Shown here one piece after another: positions 18,039 to 24,693 of a DNA stretch of 58,415 bases. A program made the translations under genes and the position numbers. The stretch is from Burkholderiaceae bacterium. Lineage in GTDB: Bacteria; Pseudomonadota; Gammaproteobacteria; Burkholderiales; Burkholderiaceae_D. Under the pieces are notes generated by a model, which was not told where the DNA came from, made no database searches, and saw nothing but the letters and a program-made list of their open reading frames with translations. The number at the start of each line of letters is the position of its first letter. Positions within the stretch are counted from its first letter, which is position 1. The stretch is from assembly GCA_018882935.1 (NCBI GenBank), contig VERA01000009.1:1-58415 (forward strand), given 5' to 3'.

Positions 18039-19838
18039 ATGAACTCACTGATTCGAATTATTTGCGCGCTGCTGCTGATGGTTGTCTCTGCCATCCCGTG
18101 GGCGGGCCCAGCCGACTGGCAAGACCAACTGAGCCAGATTCCTGCCAAAGACTGGAGCCGCGCCCACGCAGCCCACTTGCTTGAGCGCGCTGGTTTTGGC
18201 GGTACACCGTCCGAGCTTGAGCGCTTCTCGGCAATGTCTCCGGTGATGGCAGTCAGAACCTTAGTTCGGTATCAGTCGGTGCGGCAGTCGTTACCGCCGT
18301 TCGAAGCTTCCGGCGCGTTTGACCCCGGGCTTGATCCTTTCTCACCATCGCGCCCTGCCGCCACTGAGAAAGCCAAGGCCGAGGGCGAAGCGCTCGGCGT
18401 AAAGGTAAAGCCACAGGGAAATCGCCGGCTGCAGCAGGTGGCTGATCGTTATCTTTACTGGCTGCGAGTGAGCAAGCTGGAGTCACAGCGTATCGGCTAC
18501 TGGTGGGCAAATCGCATGCTGGTCACGCAGCGCCCGCTGGAAGAAAAAATGACGCTGTTCTGGCATGGGCATTTCGCCACCAGTGACGAGAAGGTGCGCG
18601 ACTATCGAAAAATGCTGAAACAGAACGAAATGCTGCGAGCGAAAGCGACCGGTAATTTCCGTGATTTGCTGATCGCTGTTGCGCAAGACCCGGCGATGCT
18701 GGCGTATCTGGATGCTGCGGTGAATGTGAAGGGGGCACCCAACGAGAACTTCGCGCGCGAGATCATGGAGTTGTTCTCGATGGGCGTCGGTAATTACACC
18801 GAAGAAGATATTCGCGAGGCGGCGCGTGCTTTCACCGGTTGGAATTATCAGGGATTGAATTTTGTCATCAACCCGGCGCAGCATGATGATGGTAGTAAAA
18901 CCGTATTGGGTGAGCGCGGCCGCTTTGATGGCGTGCAGGTGATTGATATTATTTTGTCCAAACCTGTGACTGCTGAATTCATCGCGACCAGGTTGTATCG
19001 CTATTTTGTTCGCGAAGAGATCTCGCCGGAGATGCGCGTTAAGCTCGGTCAGCTGCTGCGCGATAACAAGTACGAGATCGCACCTTTCCTCGAGGCGCTA
19101 TTCTTGTCGAAAGATTTTTACGCCGAGGCCTCGGTGGGCACGCGTATCAAGCCACCGGTTGAGCTGGTGGTGTCAACGTACCGCAAGATGGGGCTGCGCG
19201 AAATACCGGGAATTCCAGACTTCAACGAGCTGACCGACGCGATGGGTCAGAAACTTCTGTTCCCACCGAACGTGGCGGGCTGGGCCAGCGGCAAGAGCTG
19301 GATCACGCCGGGCTTGCTGCTGGTACGCGGCAACTTTGTGTATGACACGGTGTTCCCGCCGATTGACTTTGTCGCCAAAGACCGGGTACCGGATGATCGC
19401 TACGGCATCGTGCCGGTTGCCGACAAGCTTGCGATGGGCGTTGATATAACGACCGCGACCAAGCCCGATGGTAAAGAGGTGACCTCGATGTCGATGCAAA
19501 ATGATCGCGACGAAGATTTCAACACCCGCCTGGCGAGTTACCACGCCTGGCGCAAAGCGATCGAGAAGGTGAAACCCATACCGCGCGCGCCGGCGCAACT
19601 TGACCTAGCCAAGCTGGTGCGTGATGCGGGCTGCCTGACCACGCAACAAGCGGTTGATCATTTGCTGATGCGCTTTTTAGTGGTGCCGGTTGACGCTGAC
19701 ACGCGTACAAAGTTAGCTGAATTACTGGCCAATGATCTCGGTACCAACGACCTGAAACTCGCCGATAGCTACATGGAAGATGCATTGCGCAATACGCTGC
19801 ATGTGATTCTCTCGCTTCCGATTTACCAATTAGGCTAA
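18039..19838 (+). CDS. DUF1800 family exported protein
   Basis: A 599-residue protein with an N-terminal signal peptide (about residues 1-22). It carries the DUF1800 signatures HLLERAGFGGTPSEL near the start, MTLFWHGHFATSDEKV in the middle, NENFAREIMELFSMGVG and the later WITPGLLLVRGNF region. The biochemical role of DUF1800 is not established; it is usually paired with DUF1501, as here, where the next gene starts 5 bases after the stop. The pair is exported and is thought to act on an envelope or extracellular substrate. Confidence 0.9.
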   Translation: MNSLIRIICALLLMVVSAIPWAGPADWQDQLSQIPAKDWSRAHAAHLLERAGFGGTPSELERFSAMSPVMAVRTLVRYQSVRQSLPPFEASGAFDPGLDPFSPSRPAATEKAKAEGEALGVKVKPQGNRRLQQVADRYLYWLRVSKLESQRIGYWWANRMLVTQRPLEEKMTLFWHGHFATSDEKVRDYRKMLKQNEMLRAKATGNFRDLLIAVAQDPAMLAYLDAAVNVKGAPNENFAREIMELFSMGVGNYTEEDIREAARAFTGWNYQGLNFVINPAQHDDGSKTVLGERGRFDGVQVIDIILSKPVTAEFIATRLYRYFVREEISPEMRVKLGQLLRDNKYEIAPFLEALFLSKDFYAEASVGTRIKPPVELVVSTYRKMGLREIPGIPDFNELTDAMGQKLLFPPNVAGWASGKSWITPGLLLVRGNFVYDTVFPPIDFVAKDRVPDDRYGIVPVADKLAMGVDITTATKPDGKEVTSMSMQNDRDEDFNTRLASYHAWRKAIEKVKPIPRAPAQLDLAKLVRDAGCLTTQQAVDHLLMRFLVVPVDADTRTKLAELLANDLGTNDLKLADSYMEDALRNTLHVILSLPIYQLG

Positions 19839-19843
19839 TTCAC

Positions 19844-21163
19844 ATGGGGCAATTCAATCGACATCAAGATCTGTCGCCAACTATTGGGTGTGATCAATCT
19901 CAGCACGAGCTTGATCATGCCAATGCTGACCTCATGCGACGCAGCTTGTTGAAGACATTGGGGGCAGCAGGTTTGTCGTTAGGTTTACCTTTTTCGCTTG
20001 CGCATGCGGGCACGGCAGCCTTGTCCGGTGCATCTGCATCACCTGCTGCTTCAGCGTCGAGTGGCGCTACCCGGCAACCGATTCTGGTGGTCGTGGAGTT
20101 GTCGGGTGCGAACGACGGCTTGAATACGCTGGTGCCGTATGCCGATGATGCTTATTATCGATTGCGTCCGCGTATTGGTATTCGCTCTGAGAAGGTACGC
20201 AAGATTGATGATCGTTTCGGCTTCAACCCGTCGATGTCAGGATTTGAACAGTTATTCAAAGACGGCAAGATGGCGATTGTGCATGGATGTGGTTATGCAC
20301 AACCTTCGTTCTCGCATTTCACCTCGGCGGCGTATTGGCACACGGCCGCACCGAATACCGGTGAGCCGTACGGCTGGTTGGGTAGGGTGGCTGATGCAAT
20401 TGATCCGCAACTGACACCGAATTTTCTGGTGAATATCGACGAGCGTCAGTCGCTGGCCGTGCGTTCAGCGCGGCATGTACCGGTGGTGTTCGATGACCCC
20501 GAGCGTTTCGCACGCAAAGGTCTACGGCAGAGCCGTCCGCTGCTGGATAACGCGGTGGCTGCAGACGCCGGTAGCACTTCGCGAAAATACCTCGATGAAG
20601 TTGCACAGAGCGCGCGGCAGGCATCGCACTTGGTACGCACCGCCTGGGAGGGTTACAAGACCCCGATTGATTACGGCATCATCTCGCTGGATCTACCCAA
20701 GGTAGCGTCGATGATTCATGCTGGTTTGCCGACCCGTTTGTTTTATGTGTCGTATCGCCATAATGCGTTTGATACCCACGTGCAGCAAGCCGAGCAGCAT
20801 GGTCGTTTGCTGTCATATGTATCCGATGCGATTGCTGGTTTTATCAAAGATATGCAGCGCATCGGTCGCGCTGATGATGTGAGCGTGCTGGTATTTTCCG
20901 AGTTTGGTCGCCGCGCTGCTGAGAATACCAGTCTGGGCACAGATCATGGCACCGCCAACCACATGTATGTGATTGGGAACCGAGTCCGTGGTGGTCATTA
21001 TGGTGAGATTCCCTCCCTCACCGATCTCGATGAGGGCGGCAATCTGAAATTCAGTACGGATTTTCGTCGTGTTTATGCCAGCGTCATCGAAGGATGGCTC
21101 GGGCATGCGGACAGCAAATCACTGCTATCCGGCAGCTTTGATACGTTTCCTTTGTTTGCATAA
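19844..21163 (+). CDS. DUF1501 family protein (Tat substrate)
   Basis: A 439-residue protein with a twin-arginine type signal: MRRSLLKTLGAAGLSLGLP begins at the internal ATG 19934 (residue 31), so the real start may be 19934 rather than 19844. The body has DUF1501 features: VVVELSGANDGLNTLVPY, a central GCGYAQPSFSHFTSAAYW, and a C-terminal VLVFSEFGRRAAENTSLGTD-type segment, similar in outline to alkaline-phosphatase-like/sulfatase folds. It forms an operon with the DUF1800 gene. The Tat signal suggests folding, possibly with cofactor loading, before export. Confidence 0.9.
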   Translation: MGQFNRHQDLSPTIGCDQSQHELDHANADLMRRSLLKTLGAAGLSLGLPFSLAHAGTAALSGASASPAASASSGATRQPILVVVELSGANDGLNTLVPYADDAYYRLRPRIGIRSEKVRKIDDRFGFNPSMSGFEQLFKDGKMAIVHGCGYAQPSFSHFTSAAYWHTAAPNTGEPYGWLGRVADAIDPQLTPNFLVNIDERQSLAVRSARHVPVVFDDPERFARKGLRQSRPLLDNAVAADAGSTSRKYLDEVAQSARQASHLVRTAWEGYKTPIDYGIISLDLPKVASMIHAGLPTRLFYVSYRHNAFDTHVQQAEQHGRLLSYVSDAIAGFIKDMQRIGRADDVSVLVFSEFGRRAAENTSLGTDHGTANHMYVIGNRVRGGHYGEIPSLTDLDEGGNLKFSTDFRRVYASVIEGWLGHADSKSLLSGSFDTFPLFA

Positions 21164-21165
21164 GC

Positions 21166-21519
21166 CTAGGGCTGTGAAGACGCAGTTGTACTGACAACTG
21201 CGGGCAAGCGCGGTTTCGGTTTGCCTTGTACATCCGAGATGCGATATTTGGTGCGGCGGTCGCCCATCAGATCGCGCAGCTCACGTATGCTGAGTTCGGT
21301 GACTTCATGCATACGAATCAGCATGGAAGCACCAACCGGTAGCGCACGGTGGCGTATTTTGCTGATCACCGGTGGTGCTACTTCAAGTGCCCTTGATAGC
21401 GCGGCATCGTTTTTGAGTTGCATGCGCTCGCGTAGCGTATCGAGAAGGCGACTCGGGTCATAGGTGTCTTGCGAGGCGAGGGCATGCTCTGCCGGGTGCT
21501 GACGGTGAAGGGGTTCCAT
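21166..21519 (-). CDS. Small XRE-like helix-turn-helix protein
   Basis: A 117-residue cytoplasmic protein. Residues about 35-85 form a lambda-repressor-like HTH: ALSRALEVAPPVISKIR reads as helices 2 and 3, followed by LIRMHEVTELSIRELRDLM. It probably binds DNA. It is convergent with the DUF1501 gene (2-base gap) and lies 149 bases downstream of the S8 protease in the same direction, so it could be the last gene of the protease cassette or an independent regulator. Confidence 0.7.
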   Translation of the reverse strand: MEPLHRQHPAEHALASQDTYDPSRLLDTLRERMQLKNDAALSRALEVAPPVISKIRHRALPVGASMLIRMHEVTELSIRELRDLMGDRRTKYRISDVQGKPKPRLPAVVSTTASSQP

Positions 21520-21668: not shown

Positions 21669-23576
21669 TCACCATAAGTTGGTCATCATGCCGGGGCTTA
21701 TTGTTTGCGGGTAGTTACCCGGTATCGGAAATGACATCAGCCCAAGCGGTATCCCCAGCGAGGTCGTTTGTGCTTGTAGTGCCGGTAGATCGCGGTACCC
21801 CATGCGAAGCGCTTGCAGTGCAGGCATGTTCATTAATGCGCTCAGGCCTGCTGCAGTACTTGCTACAGTACTCGCCGCAGCAGGTAAGTTTTGGGGCGCT
21901 GCCAAGCCAACCGCACGCAGGGTATCGGGTAAACCAAAACCGGTACGGCGCTGGTCACCCAGCATCAGCGGCTGGCAGGATTGCTTGATGATCTGAAATA
22001 AACGCTCTACACGCGCTGCGCTGCGCATCTGCCCGCTGCCCCGGAAATCCGGATGATGCGCCAGCGCGAGTGCAGCAAGGCCTGTCACATGCGGCGCGGC
22101 CATCGAGGTGCCATCCCATGCCGCGTAACTCTGATCAGGCACCGAAGAGGTGATGGCAACGCCAGGTGCACATACCGATACTTCGGGGCCATAGCAGCTA
22201 AAGCTCGCAGAGAAAAAGCCATTGGCATCAACCACCGGTGTCACCGTTTGCGCGTGGTAGCTATCGGATGGGAATTCATTGACACGACCGATCGCGGCAA
22301 CCGTGAGCACATTCGGCGAGGAGCCAGGGTATTGCACAATGCCGCCCGAGTTACCCGCCGCGACGATACAGGCGATCCCCGCTTGCTTGGCACGGATGAT
22401 TTGTTGCTCGAGGGCTTCCGAGGGCTCGGCACCACCGAGCGACATGTTGACCACATCAATCTGCTGCTCGATACAGTATTCCAGCGCATCGATGAGCTGA
22501 CTCACCTGACCACCGGGGAACAGCTTGCAGACATGAATCTCTGCATCGGGTACGAAGCCGCGAATGCCACCGGCTGAATCTAGCCCCGCGATCAGCCCGG
22601 TGCAGTGCGAACCATGCGCCAGCGTATCGATATTCCAGGTGGCGGTGTTGATGCTCTTGTTGACGATGTCATAGCCACGCGATACTTGCGTTAGATCCGG
22701 GTGCGTGTTGGTACAGCCGGAATCAATCACAGCCACTTTCACGCCTTGGCCACGGAAGGTGTTCGGCAGCTGATCCAGTCGCATCGCACGCTGGCCCCAC
22801 GTGAGTTGCTGCTGTTGCGGGAAATTTTTCAGGCTGGGCCAATCAGAGAGTGCGCGTAATCCCACCATATTCAACTCGCTGTCGCTCACATCGGGTTGCA
22901 TTTGGTAGAAGCTCCAGAAATCAGCGCGTGGCTTCACATACAACTTGCGCAGGCTGGTAGCGGTCTCGCCGAATAGCGTGAGTCGTACGCGCCCTTGCGT
23001 ATCGGTGACGCCTTGCGCGGGCAGCATACTGCCGAATAAATACACCTCGGCACCGGCAACCGGCTGCCCTTTGCCCATGACAACAAATTCTGCGCTGAAC
23101 GCGGCACCGGCCGCAGGTAAATTACAGTTAGCGAGCGGTGGCTGCTGCAGGTAGCCCACGTCGTGCAGTTGCAAGGGCTGATCACGTTCAACAATCAGCT
23201 GGCCTTGCGCCTGTTGTGCAAGCGCGTGCGCTTTGTCTTCATGCATCAGCGCGACCAATACGCCACCTTCGTTCAGTCCGGTGCCAAGCGCACCGACCAC
23301 TTGCTTGGGCCCGACCCGATCAATAATCTGAATGTCGGGCGATTCTTTCAGCGCTTGCTCAACCATCGAGAAACTCAGCGGTGCGATCCCCATCATTTGC
23401 ATGCTCGGGTGGCGGCGCGGGGCAATCAGAAATTGCCCTTTGCGCTGCGTGATGCCGCGTGATGCGGGGTTCAAGCCCGAGACTGTACTCACTCCCGAAC
23501 TCGAGGATGCAGACGCCGGATTGGCGCCCGAACTTGATGTAGCCGAGGCCTTATCGGCGTCTGATTTGGTGGCCAT
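21669..23576 (-). CDS. S8 subtilisin-like serine protease with prodomain-like N-terminus
   Basis: A 635-residue protease. The catalytic set is complete: Asp285 in VAVIDSGC, His321 in AHGSHCTG, Asn409 in AAGNSG and Ser491 in DGTSMAAPHVTG. The Ser/Ala-rich N-terminus has no hydrophobic signal. Residues about 47-140 form a prodomain-like unit (GQFLIAP...IIDRVGPKQ...RDQPLQLHD) that is similar to the whole of the next upstream gene. Residues about 155-215 look like a carboxypeptidase-regulatory-type beta domain (GAEVYLFG, GVTDTQGRVRL). The C-terminal 100 residues are Ala/Leu/Met-rich. It is the third gene of a three-gene unit. With no Sec signal, it either acts in the cytoplasm or leaves by an unusual route. 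Confidence 0.92.
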   Translation of the reverse strand: MATKSDADKASATSSSGANPASASSSSGVSTVSGLNPASRGITQRKGQFLIAPRRHPSMQMMGIAPLSFSMVEQALKESPDIQIIDRVGPKQVVGALGTGLNEGGVLVALMHEDKAHALAQQAQGQLIVERDQPLQLHDVGYLQQPPLANCNLPAAGAAFSAEFVVMGKGQPVAGAEVYLFGSMLPAQGVTDTQGRVRLTLFGETATSLRKLYVKPRADFWSFYQMQPDVSDSELNMVGLRALSDWPSLKNFPQQQQLTWGQRAMRLDQLPNTFRGQGVKVAVIDSGCTNTHPDLTQVSRGYDIVNKSINTATWNIDTLAHGSHCTGLIAGLDSAGGIRGFVPDAEIHVCKLFPGGQVSQLIDALEYCIEQQIDVVNMSLGGAEPSEALEQQIIRAKQAGIACIVAAGNSGGIVQYPGSSPNVLTVAAIGRVNEFPSDSYHAQTVTPVVDANGFFSASFSCYGPEVSVCAPGVAITSSVPDQSYAAWDGTSMAAPHVTGLAALALAHHPDFRGSGQMRSAARVERLFQIIKQSCQPLMLGDQRRTGFGLPDTLRAVGLAAPQNLPAAASTVASTAAGLSALMNMPALQALRMGYRDLPALQAQTTSLGIPLGLMSFPIPGNYPQTISPGMMTNLW

Positions 23577-23600
23577 GACAATCCTTTCGACGTTGACGGT

Positions 23601-23876
23601 TTATTGGCTCGCTGCCTGCTGATCAAACATCTTTAATTTCTGATCGGGCTCGATCATGAGCTCGCCCGCACCTGCAAATTTCTGCTGCAGTTGCGCTGCT
23701 TGCTCATGCGGCATGTCGAACACGGCGGTGTGAGGCGCTTGCGATGGGCCGAGCGTATCGAGCAGGTGGAGCTCGGGATGTGCGCTCAGCTCGGACAAAA
23801 AAGCGGAAAGCTTCTCCCCGCTCGCACTACTGACGAGATAGCGACCGCGCCCGGGGGCGCTCTGAATAAGTGGCAT
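23601..23876 (-). CDS. Stand-alone protease-prodomain-like small protein
   Basis: A 91-residue protein starting at the ATG 23876, chosen because AGAGGA precedes it by 7 bases; the frame stays open further upstream but only as antisense-like sequence. It aligns by eye over almost its full length with residues 47-140 of the S8 protease encoded 24 bases downstream: GRYLVSS with GQFLIAP, LLDTLGPSQ with IIDRVGPKQ, PDQKLKMFD with RDQPLQLHD. The size and alpha/beta pattern recall I9-type propeptides, which fold subtilases and inhibit them in trans. It is therefore a candidate inhibitor, chaperone or immunity factor for that protease. The exact family is not recognised. Confidence 0.75.
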   Translation of the reverse strand: MPLIQSAPGRGRYLVSSASGEKLSAFLSELSAHPELHLLDTLGPSQAPHTAVFDMPHEQAAQLQQKFAGAGELMIEPDQKLKMFDQQAASQ

Positions 23877-23938
23877 ACCAATGTCCTCTGCGTGGGGTGG
23901 ACGATTGCGCCGGCCTACCACCGGCGCGGCCTGTCTTT

Positions 23939-24601
23939 TCAGTGCAGCGTCTGACCCGTCGCGTAGGCTTGTTGAGCAGCTGTGCCATACGGCTGCTGCT
24001 GTGCCAATTGCTGGGCCATTTGCTGTGCAAGCTGCATCTGCGCGCATTGCTGCGCCCACTGCTGCTGCGCAAGCTGTTGTTGCGCTAGCTGCTGTGCCAT
24101 GGCTTGCTGAACAGGGTCGAGCTGGAACGGTAACAGACGACCAATCTGCGCAGCGATACTGCCGATTTGTCCACCCAACGCCGGTTGACCATACAAACCG
24201 CCAATCGCTGTACCGACGGGCTGACCGATTTGACCGATCAGGTTGCCGAACCATCCCTGGGGCGCAAACTGCTGCTGAGTGAGTTGTTGCAGCTGTTGTT
24301 GCTGCGCGAGCTGTTGAAGTTGCTGCTGCAGCGCTTGCTGTTGAATCTGCTGTTGAAGCGCTTGCTGCTGCGCGAGTTGTTGCGCATAGACTTGCATCGG
24401 GTCGGCTGCAAAGGGAAGCAGCCCGCCGCCGATACCGCCGGCGAGTTGTCCAATCTGGCTACCCAGCCCCGGTTGTCCGAAGATACTACCGATGCCGCGA
24501 CCAATCAGCCCACCCACAGGTGCGCCGAACATTGTCCCGAAAAATCCCTGCGGCAGTAAGGCCTGCGAACCGTAAGCGCCTGTTTGCGAAATGCCATTCA
24601 T
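23939..24601 (-). CDS. Gly-zipper / Gln-rich duplicated protein, unknown function
   Basis: A 220-residue protein built from two tandem copies of one module. Each copy has a glycine-zipper-like hydrophobic stretch (residues about 17-63 and 114-158), the shared signature QIGxxAxxIGxLLPF, then DP and a Gln/Ala/Leu-rich helix (about 68-112 and 162-203). There is no signal peptide and only one Cys. Gly-zipper stretches can insert into or oligomerise in membranes; the Gln-rich arms could form coiled coils. It is the first gene of the cassette with the prodomain-like protein and the S8 protease, so it may be that protease's substrate. The ribosome site is partly inside a hairpin. Confidence 0.75.
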   Translation of the reverse strand: MNGISQTGAYGSQALLPQGFFGTMFGAPVGGLIGRGIGSIFGQPGLGSQIGQLAGGIGGGLLPFAADPMQVYAQQLAQQQALQQQIQQQALQQQLQQLAQQQQLQQLTQQQFAPQGWFGNLIGQIGQPVGTAIGGLYGQPALGGQIGSIAAQIGRLLPFQLDPVQQAMAQQLAQQQLAQQQWAQQCAQMQLAQQMAQQLAQQQPYGTAAQQAYATGQTLH

Positions 24602-24661: not shown

Positions 24662-24693
24662 CGATCGAGAGGCTAATTGTGGCCTCTCAATCG
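24662..24693. repeat. 12-bp stem hairpin upstream of the Gly-zipper gene
   Basis: Arms at 24662-24673 and 24682-24693 (core GAGAGGC/GCCTCTC) pair with a single G-T wobble around an 8-base loop. No T-run follows in either direction, so it is not a simple terminator. It may be part of the cassette's 5' leader or a protein-binding site. Confidence 0.5.

Follow-up and report, generated by a model that had tools for sequence, protein, structure and literature searches.

A conserved bacterial cassette joins a subtilase to a free homologue of its own N-terminal domain and a glycine-zipper protein

Stand-alone inhibitors of propeptide-like topology have been described in POIA1, the yeast proteinase B inhibitor, Arabidopsis SPI-1, TgMIC5 and Plasmodium SUB1-ProM, and those named in the passages drawn on here are all eukaryotic (PMC6993865). 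Here, we describe a three-gene cassette on the minus strand of a 58-kb window, the contig VERA01000009.1 (58,415 nt) of the 2.74-Mb genome of a Burkholderiaceae bacterium (GCA_018882935.1), which encodes a glycine-zipper protein (Zip), a 91-residue propeptide-like protein (Small) and a subtilase of family S8, in that order. Like the listed inhibitors, Small is a separate small protein, with a topology predicted to be propeptide-like, and its gene adjoins that of the protease, as described for SUB1-ProM (PMC6993865). Unlike them, it is bacterial, belongs to a three-gene unit, is recognisably related in sequence to the N-terminal domain of the protease encoded beside it, occurs in natural fusions and gives no Pfam I9 match.

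Myxococcus xanthus PopC resembles the cassette protease in being a partnered subtilisin-like enzyme without a signal peptide, and its partner PopD complexes with it and prevents it from being secreted until the cells starve (PMC6434023). PopC differs in being secreted and in having as substrate p25, encoded by csgA, and the passages of the source used here mention no glycine-zipper partner gene (PMC6434023); PopD is likened to Small by description only. Caulobacter CdzC and CdzD recall Zip through their extended GxxxG repeats and are encoded with an immunity gene, but they depend on a type I secretion system and on CdzI, an immunity protein of the membrane, as far as the cited account goes (PMC5380434), whereas the present cassette pairs its repeat protein with a subtilase and a propeptide-like protein. 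The S8 anti-phage peptidase of IetAS (IteS) and the type VII mycosins share the subtilase catalytic domain with the cassette protease, which has other partner genes and scores far below the curated cut-offs of both families (26.8 bits of 900 for NCBIfam IteS and 125.6 of 278.75 for TIGR03921), so that it falls outside each. By analogy, the nearest functional precedents would be the eukaryotic stand-alone propeptide-like inhibitors and PopC/PopD, with the glycine-zipper part recalling CdzC/CdzD; no description of a zip-small-protease cassette was found among the matches listed from open-licence papers.

We propose, with a probability of about 0.5, that the cassette encodes a protease switch in which a cytoplasmic subtilase is held by a dedicated propeptide-like inhibitor, Small, and in which Zip is the probable client. 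A sequence-only reading of this locus had described three co-directional genes with gaps of 62 and 24 bases and a terminator on one side, and the coordinates agree: zip (23939..24601, 220 aa), small (23601..23876, with its ATG at 23876) and the subtilase gene (21669..23576, 635 aa) run together on the minus strand, with 62 bases between zip and small and 24 between small and the protease gene. By eye, an AGGA-type ribosome site lies shortly 5' of each ATG. Between zip and the upstream lactate permease gene stand a terminator-like hairpin (24662..24693, minus strand) and a second hairpin, found by eye at 24766-24740 on the same strand and followed by six T (24739-24734), and these hairpin terminators set the cassette apart from the permease gene. 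The ratio of nonsynonymous to synonymous substitution rates (dN/dS) across zip, small and the protease was 0.05-0.19 in two genome pairs, with synonymous sites near saturation in the first, and the three therefore look like real genes; for small alone the values were 0.10 and 0.19.

The protease family occurs mainly in Oxalobacteraceae (among named homologues, Massilia, Duganella, Rugamonas, Noviherbaspirillum, Herminiimonas and many freshwater metagenome-assembled genomes, MAGs), and also in single MAGs binned as Acidobacteria, Bryobacterales and Arthrobacter. Small was matched in 19 of 96 relatives, the window's own genome included, and 16 of the 18 neighbourhoods fetched outside that genome hold all three genes in the same order; the other two (L037 and L038, from genomes G060 and G095) are chance hits with no adjoining protease or zip. 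Zip modules were found in 20 of the 96, in 17 of them with Small; of the remaining three, two lie at contig ends and one is a degraded copy that lacks Small. Across 392 family genomes, the Small profile matched 97, eight of them (G001, G003, G004, G010, G015, G203, G243 and G353) solely through the protease N-terminus; for the remaining 89 Small-bearing genomes, gene order was checked at 54 loci, window included. The protease follows directly on the same strand in 54/54, though broken up by frameshifts in a few, and Small is preceded by zipper modules in 53/54, the single miss (L069) being a contig end. A protease-first survey covered 80 loci from named genomes, two of which cannot show the place of small; the gene is present in 75 of the 78 observable loci and absent in three, a count that includes four loci first scored as lacking it (L126, L128, L158 and L178) and a divergent Small in L185, all recognized by inspection.

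Among 300 genomes of the order, only 5 matches were obtained, all in the window's own family. No match to Small was found on plasmids, and none of the phage records reaches 80% coverage of the protease; two Streptomyces plasmids match the protease, one of which was examined. The flanks vary: lactate permease adjoins the cassette in the window and 11/80 loci, and inspection of four loci outside the window's genus revealed EarP beside the cassette in L147 (Duganella, with EF-P too) and L172 (Massilia), and citrate synthase with 2-oxoglutarate dehydrogenase in L119 (Noviherbaspirillum). The survey supports the cassette as a conserved unit, as had been supposed from the window alone; the genes are not scattered.

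On profile comparison, Small is a homologue of the protease's own N-terminal domain (residues 47-140, 23157..23438, minus strand). The alignment of the two suggested by the sequence-only reading recurred in pairwise BLASTP, in which Small residues 30-85 align with protease residues 76-139 (E 0.001), and in a comparison of profiles built from 17 Smalls and 16 protease N-termini, in which residues 11-87 align with about 47-142 (P 97.9, E 3.1e-13); four other slices of the protease, used as controls, reached P of only 0.1-0.6. Six-frame searches of genomes with the Small profile likewise pick up protease N-termini (E 1e-7 to 1e-3). The predicted fold of Small is βαββαβ (mean predicted local distance difference test score, pLDDT, 80.5), and in a model of a natural fusion the core strands and helices of both domain copies follow one another in the same order, in line with a shared predicted core topology. 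Foldseek of the fusion model confirmed only the subtilisin domain (1v5i_A, E 5e-15), and the Small profile returned nothing useful against PDB chain sequences, the best hit being a ribosomal protein (E 0.46). In-frame small-protease fusions occur in three genomes (L123, a region also covered by L083; L077; and L154), and natural fusions of this kind often mark partners, which supports the pairing. A further candidate, L072, was flagged and then dropped, its Small ending at its own stop codon. Mixed alignments of fusions, proteases and Smalls (A5 and A6) were discarded because MAFFT placed the Smalls on the wrong copy; alignment A4, with free Smalls left out and the fusion's Small domain then covered by two rows only, was used instead.

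The protease is the sole S8 match in the window's genome and belongs to Peptidase_S8 (PF00082, E 5e-44, score 151 against a cut-off of 21.8). Its catalytic domain (residues 276-512, 22041..22751, minus strand) carries the full Asp/His/Asn/Ser set noted earlier, D285, H321, N409 and S491, all invariant in 16 homologues, together with Pro495. No signal peptide was apparent by eye. A putative immunoglobulin-like (Ig-like) domain at residues about 155-235 (22872..23114, minus strand, boundaries approximate) lies between the N-terminal and catalytic domains; its Pfam matches are weak, CarboxypepD_reg being below cut-off in the window protein, and among 42 alignment members at E up to 1, Big_1 was found in 27 (best 1.7e-4) and CarboxypepD_reg in 23 (best 4.8e-4). 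The protease tail is highly divergent, yet its last residue is Trp in 16/16 (window 21672-21674), and the last residue of Zip is a near-invariant His.

Invariance across 70 free Smalls is confined to Met1, E76 and D78; fused Smalls were excluded from this count and from that of the tail register. The Glu69 and Asp71 of the BPN' propeptide cap enzyme helices, and its C-terminal tail lies in the active-site groove (PMC6993865, in the part cited). The tail of the BPN' prosegment (1spb_P) ends at Tyr77, six residues past Asp71 (D+6). Counted over distinct sequences, 65 of 82 parsed Smalls have Phe at D+6, 81 of the 82 have Leu at D+3, and 28 of the 82 end at D+6 or one residue beyond; three Smalls and two protease fragments fell off this pattern, those three Smalls having Phe at D+6 by eye. 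The protease's own copy, with its E130-x-D132, bears Leu, Met or His at D+6 in 80/90 and Phe in 3/90, and the Phe-bearing, substrate-like tail therefore belongs to the free copy and not to the built-in one. Small thus combines the helix-capping Glu-x-Asp with a C-terminal tail in P4-P1 register, as I9-type inhibitors do, and its sequence supports the view that its most conserved part consists of features specific to propeptide-style inhibition. The fused Small of L154 has E-x-E instead of E-x-D and a changed tail.

The subtilase and its dedicated inhibitor would be made together, as a self-contained and probably cytoplasmic unit. Small would dock onto the catalytic domain in the manner of a subtilisin propeptide, with E76-x-D78 capping the helices behind the active site and the tail (P4 Leu81, P1 Phe84) in the substrate groove, and would hold the enzyme off in trans; inhibition in trans is its most likely role. 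Zip is most likely the client, its family members having 2-6 glycine-zipper modules, most ending in [LMIF]-L-P-F, where P4 is hydrophobic and P1 is Phe. Once Small was removed, by degradation, dilution or stress, the protease would cut Zip after its modules and so free or remodel hydrophobic self-assembling segments. Of the protease-inhibitor-substrate unit put forward earlier, the conserved cassette, the shared sequence and predicted core topology and the inhibition-type features stand; inhibition itself, docking, the substrate, the trigger and the outcome we infer.

Zip had been read as a duplicated glycine-zipper module with Gln-rich arms, and this holds for the whole protein, which is 29% Gln and contains GxxxGxxxG eight times against a shuffle mean of 0.73, a count reached by none of 5000 shuffles. 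Its two modules of about 50 residues, both on the minus strand, differ in strength: module 1 (PQGFFGTMF...LLPFAAD, 24401..24553, recovered by a search with module 2) is strong, its count being reached in 14/5000 shuffles, and module 2 (APQGWFGNL...LLPFQLD, 24116..24265) is weak by itself (451/5000). A C-terminal His is found in 78 of 84 distinct Zip frames with two or more modules. The module ends (hydrophobic-x-P-F) resemble the inhibitor tail (L-x-x-F), which suggests that Zip is the substrate. Alternatively, Zip may be a structural, self-assembling protein of amyloid- or gel-like character that the protease and inhibitor trim or clear without any cell killing, a possibility that we think less likely. 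The variable module number and the Gln-rich arms are in line with this, as are the link of glycine zippers to aggregation in CdzC, from what is cited of that work (PMC5380434), and the scan of five neighbours in the window, in which no gene for protein secretion, immunity or defence was recognised. L185, the most distant relative with all three parts (Arthrobacter-binned, protease identity 46%), argues otherwise: it retains the small protein and module-like repeats, four by profile and a fifth by eye, but not the Gln-rich arms, which a prion-like role would favour. The arms are accordingly not essential to the design. In L185 (4140-7749), the zipper gene and small are separated by an extra 107-aa gene.

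Three genomes of the window's genus (G003, G004 and G010) lack Small and have degraded zip modules, and in G003 and G010 the motif GTSMAAPH has become GTSMAASH; G004 (L207) is cut before the active site and was left out of the tree count. The change P495S is found in the Small-less proteases L106/L116, L118 and L168, the last being a Bryobacterales-binned locus with neither Small nor recognisable modules. The Pro position is occupied by Ala in a Streptomyces plasmid homologue without Small (L188, GTTIAAAH) and in a paralogue with no adjoining small in four genomes (L107 and L212-L214, GTSMACAF). Pro is retained in 125 of 126 readable Small-bearing loci, a count that pools two locus sets and includes near-identical loci, and the exception is L154, with its fused Small of changed tail; L105/L108 (G001) and L110/L210 (G015), set aside as their contigs end at the place of small, retain Pro as well. 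Among 124 invariant residues, P495 alone is departed from by all of L106, L118, L168 and L154, which depart from 2-7 such residues each (median 0 and maximum 4 in 50 controls). Judged from the shared motif, P495 corresponds to Pro225 of subtilisin, a position whose change shifts the nucleophile and which engineers have altered for peptide ligases, according to the passages cited (PMC7921005). These few cases suggest a tendency toward joint loss of Small, of intact zipper modules and of the unaltered active-site motif.

Two of these homologues differ in further respects. On the Streptomyces plasmid p3211-2 (L188, 5051-7599), a Gln/Gly-rich 195-aa protein precedes the homologous subtilase, which has Thr at the catalytic Ser position and is possibly a pseudoprotease. 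The paralogous subtilase (L212, 3992-7198; L107, L213 and L214) occurs within the window's family and is about 510 aa long with a prodomain-like part that matches the Small profile; it is preceded by a protein with AAAAGMDLPTYLAVLQ-type repeats, not by a glycine-zipper protein, and in L212 adjoins thioesterase and ketoacyl-synthase genes.

The Small-less enzymes also bear on a second alternative, in which the protease's N-terminal domain has a degenerated tail and Small is chiefly a folding chaperone in trans, which takes over the propeptide's part a single time during folding and is then destroyed by the mature enzyme. Subtilisin propeptides serve both inhibition and folding, in the account cited (PMC6993865), Phe is missing from D+6 of the protease's built-in copy in 87/90 and the weakly matched Ig-like domain separates that copy from the catalytic domain. 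However, the L106 and L118 proteases persist without Small under purifying selection (omega 0.07 for the pair) and so presumably fold without it, and the change near their catalytic Ser better fits a need for less activity than for help in folding. We consider a mainly chaperoning role unlikely. A stronger form of the proposed switch is more doubtful still: an inhibitor-gated polyprotein switch, in which loss of the brake would lead to cleavage of Zip after each [LMIF]LPF and release of membrane-active peptides inside the cell, and in which any lineage giving up the brake would first have to tame the enzyme through the Pro close to its catalytic Ser. If true, it would be a subtilisin counterpart of the suicide logic of caspase and gasdermin.

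Several results weigh against the inhibitor-held protease with Zip as client. None of 70 Small members matched Pfam I9 at E up to 10, with HMMER filters that discard weak matches; the Small profile gave no significant alignment to the BPN' prosegment (P 0.2 global, 1.3 local), and fold matches of Small do not single out subtilase prodomains. Any I9 kinship of Small would be based on predicted topology, motif and register, not on sequence, and simple filing under I9 is disfavoured. The 232 of 293 Zip modules, counted over distinct sequences, that end in MLPF, LLPF, ILPF or FLPF are partly built in by the seed pattern of the module profile, which required P-[FLY] near the end, and strict LxxF fits 94 of the 293, a loose likeness to the inhibitor tail. 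In a tree of 59 thinned rows, from which contig-edge and duplicate loci were left out, joint loss of Small and Pro gave three independent pairs, two agreeing and one tied (p 0.5), which is suggestive but not significant.

A toxin-immunity or abortive-infection module aimed at phages or competing cells would share the protease-inhibitor-effector logic of the proposed switch. In its favour, the catalytic domain matches PADLOC 'subtilase' (PDLC03014, E 1.7e-24) and IetS (E 2.7e-9), and weakly NCBIfam IteS, and in one genome pair Small has diverged further than the protease (69% vs 90% identity), although the two are almost level in the other pair (88.5% vs 90.4%). The PADLOC matches, however, extend over the S8 domain and the residues directly around it but do not span the full protein, the IteS score is the one far below cut-off given above and the phage records stay short of 80% coverage of the protease. 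The five window neighbours scanned are housekeeping genes or genes without recognised function and gave no PADLOC match, so a defence-island setting for the conflict-type function once considered for this locus finds no support. Such a module seems to us improbable. Directly downstream of the protease on the same strand is a 117-aa protein (window 21166-21519, minus strand) without a Pfam match, which by eye has a small DNA-binding look and stands at the same place in 13/80 loci, window included; on the opposite strand, a DUF1800 and DUF1501 gene pair (18039-21163, plus strand) adjoins the cassette. That the three genes are mere vertical neighbours, with Small a decaying duplicate of the protease N-terminus to which it is clearly paralogous, is very improbable, given an order kept while flanks differ, the low dN/dS of small, its conserved E-x-D and the fusions.

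If the switch reading is correct, the cassette would be a single regulated unit, encoded in one bacterial operon and made up of a subtilase, a separate copy of that enzyme's propeptide-like domain and a repeat protein. Such an operon would offer a clean genetic system for a free inhibitor arising from a prodomain, with the separate, fused and absent states all natural, and a test of whether inhibitor loss goes with an altered active site. Because the changed position corresponds to P225 of subtilisin, as treated in the cited passages (PMC7921005), the Small-less enzymes may be natural candidates for altered chemistry.

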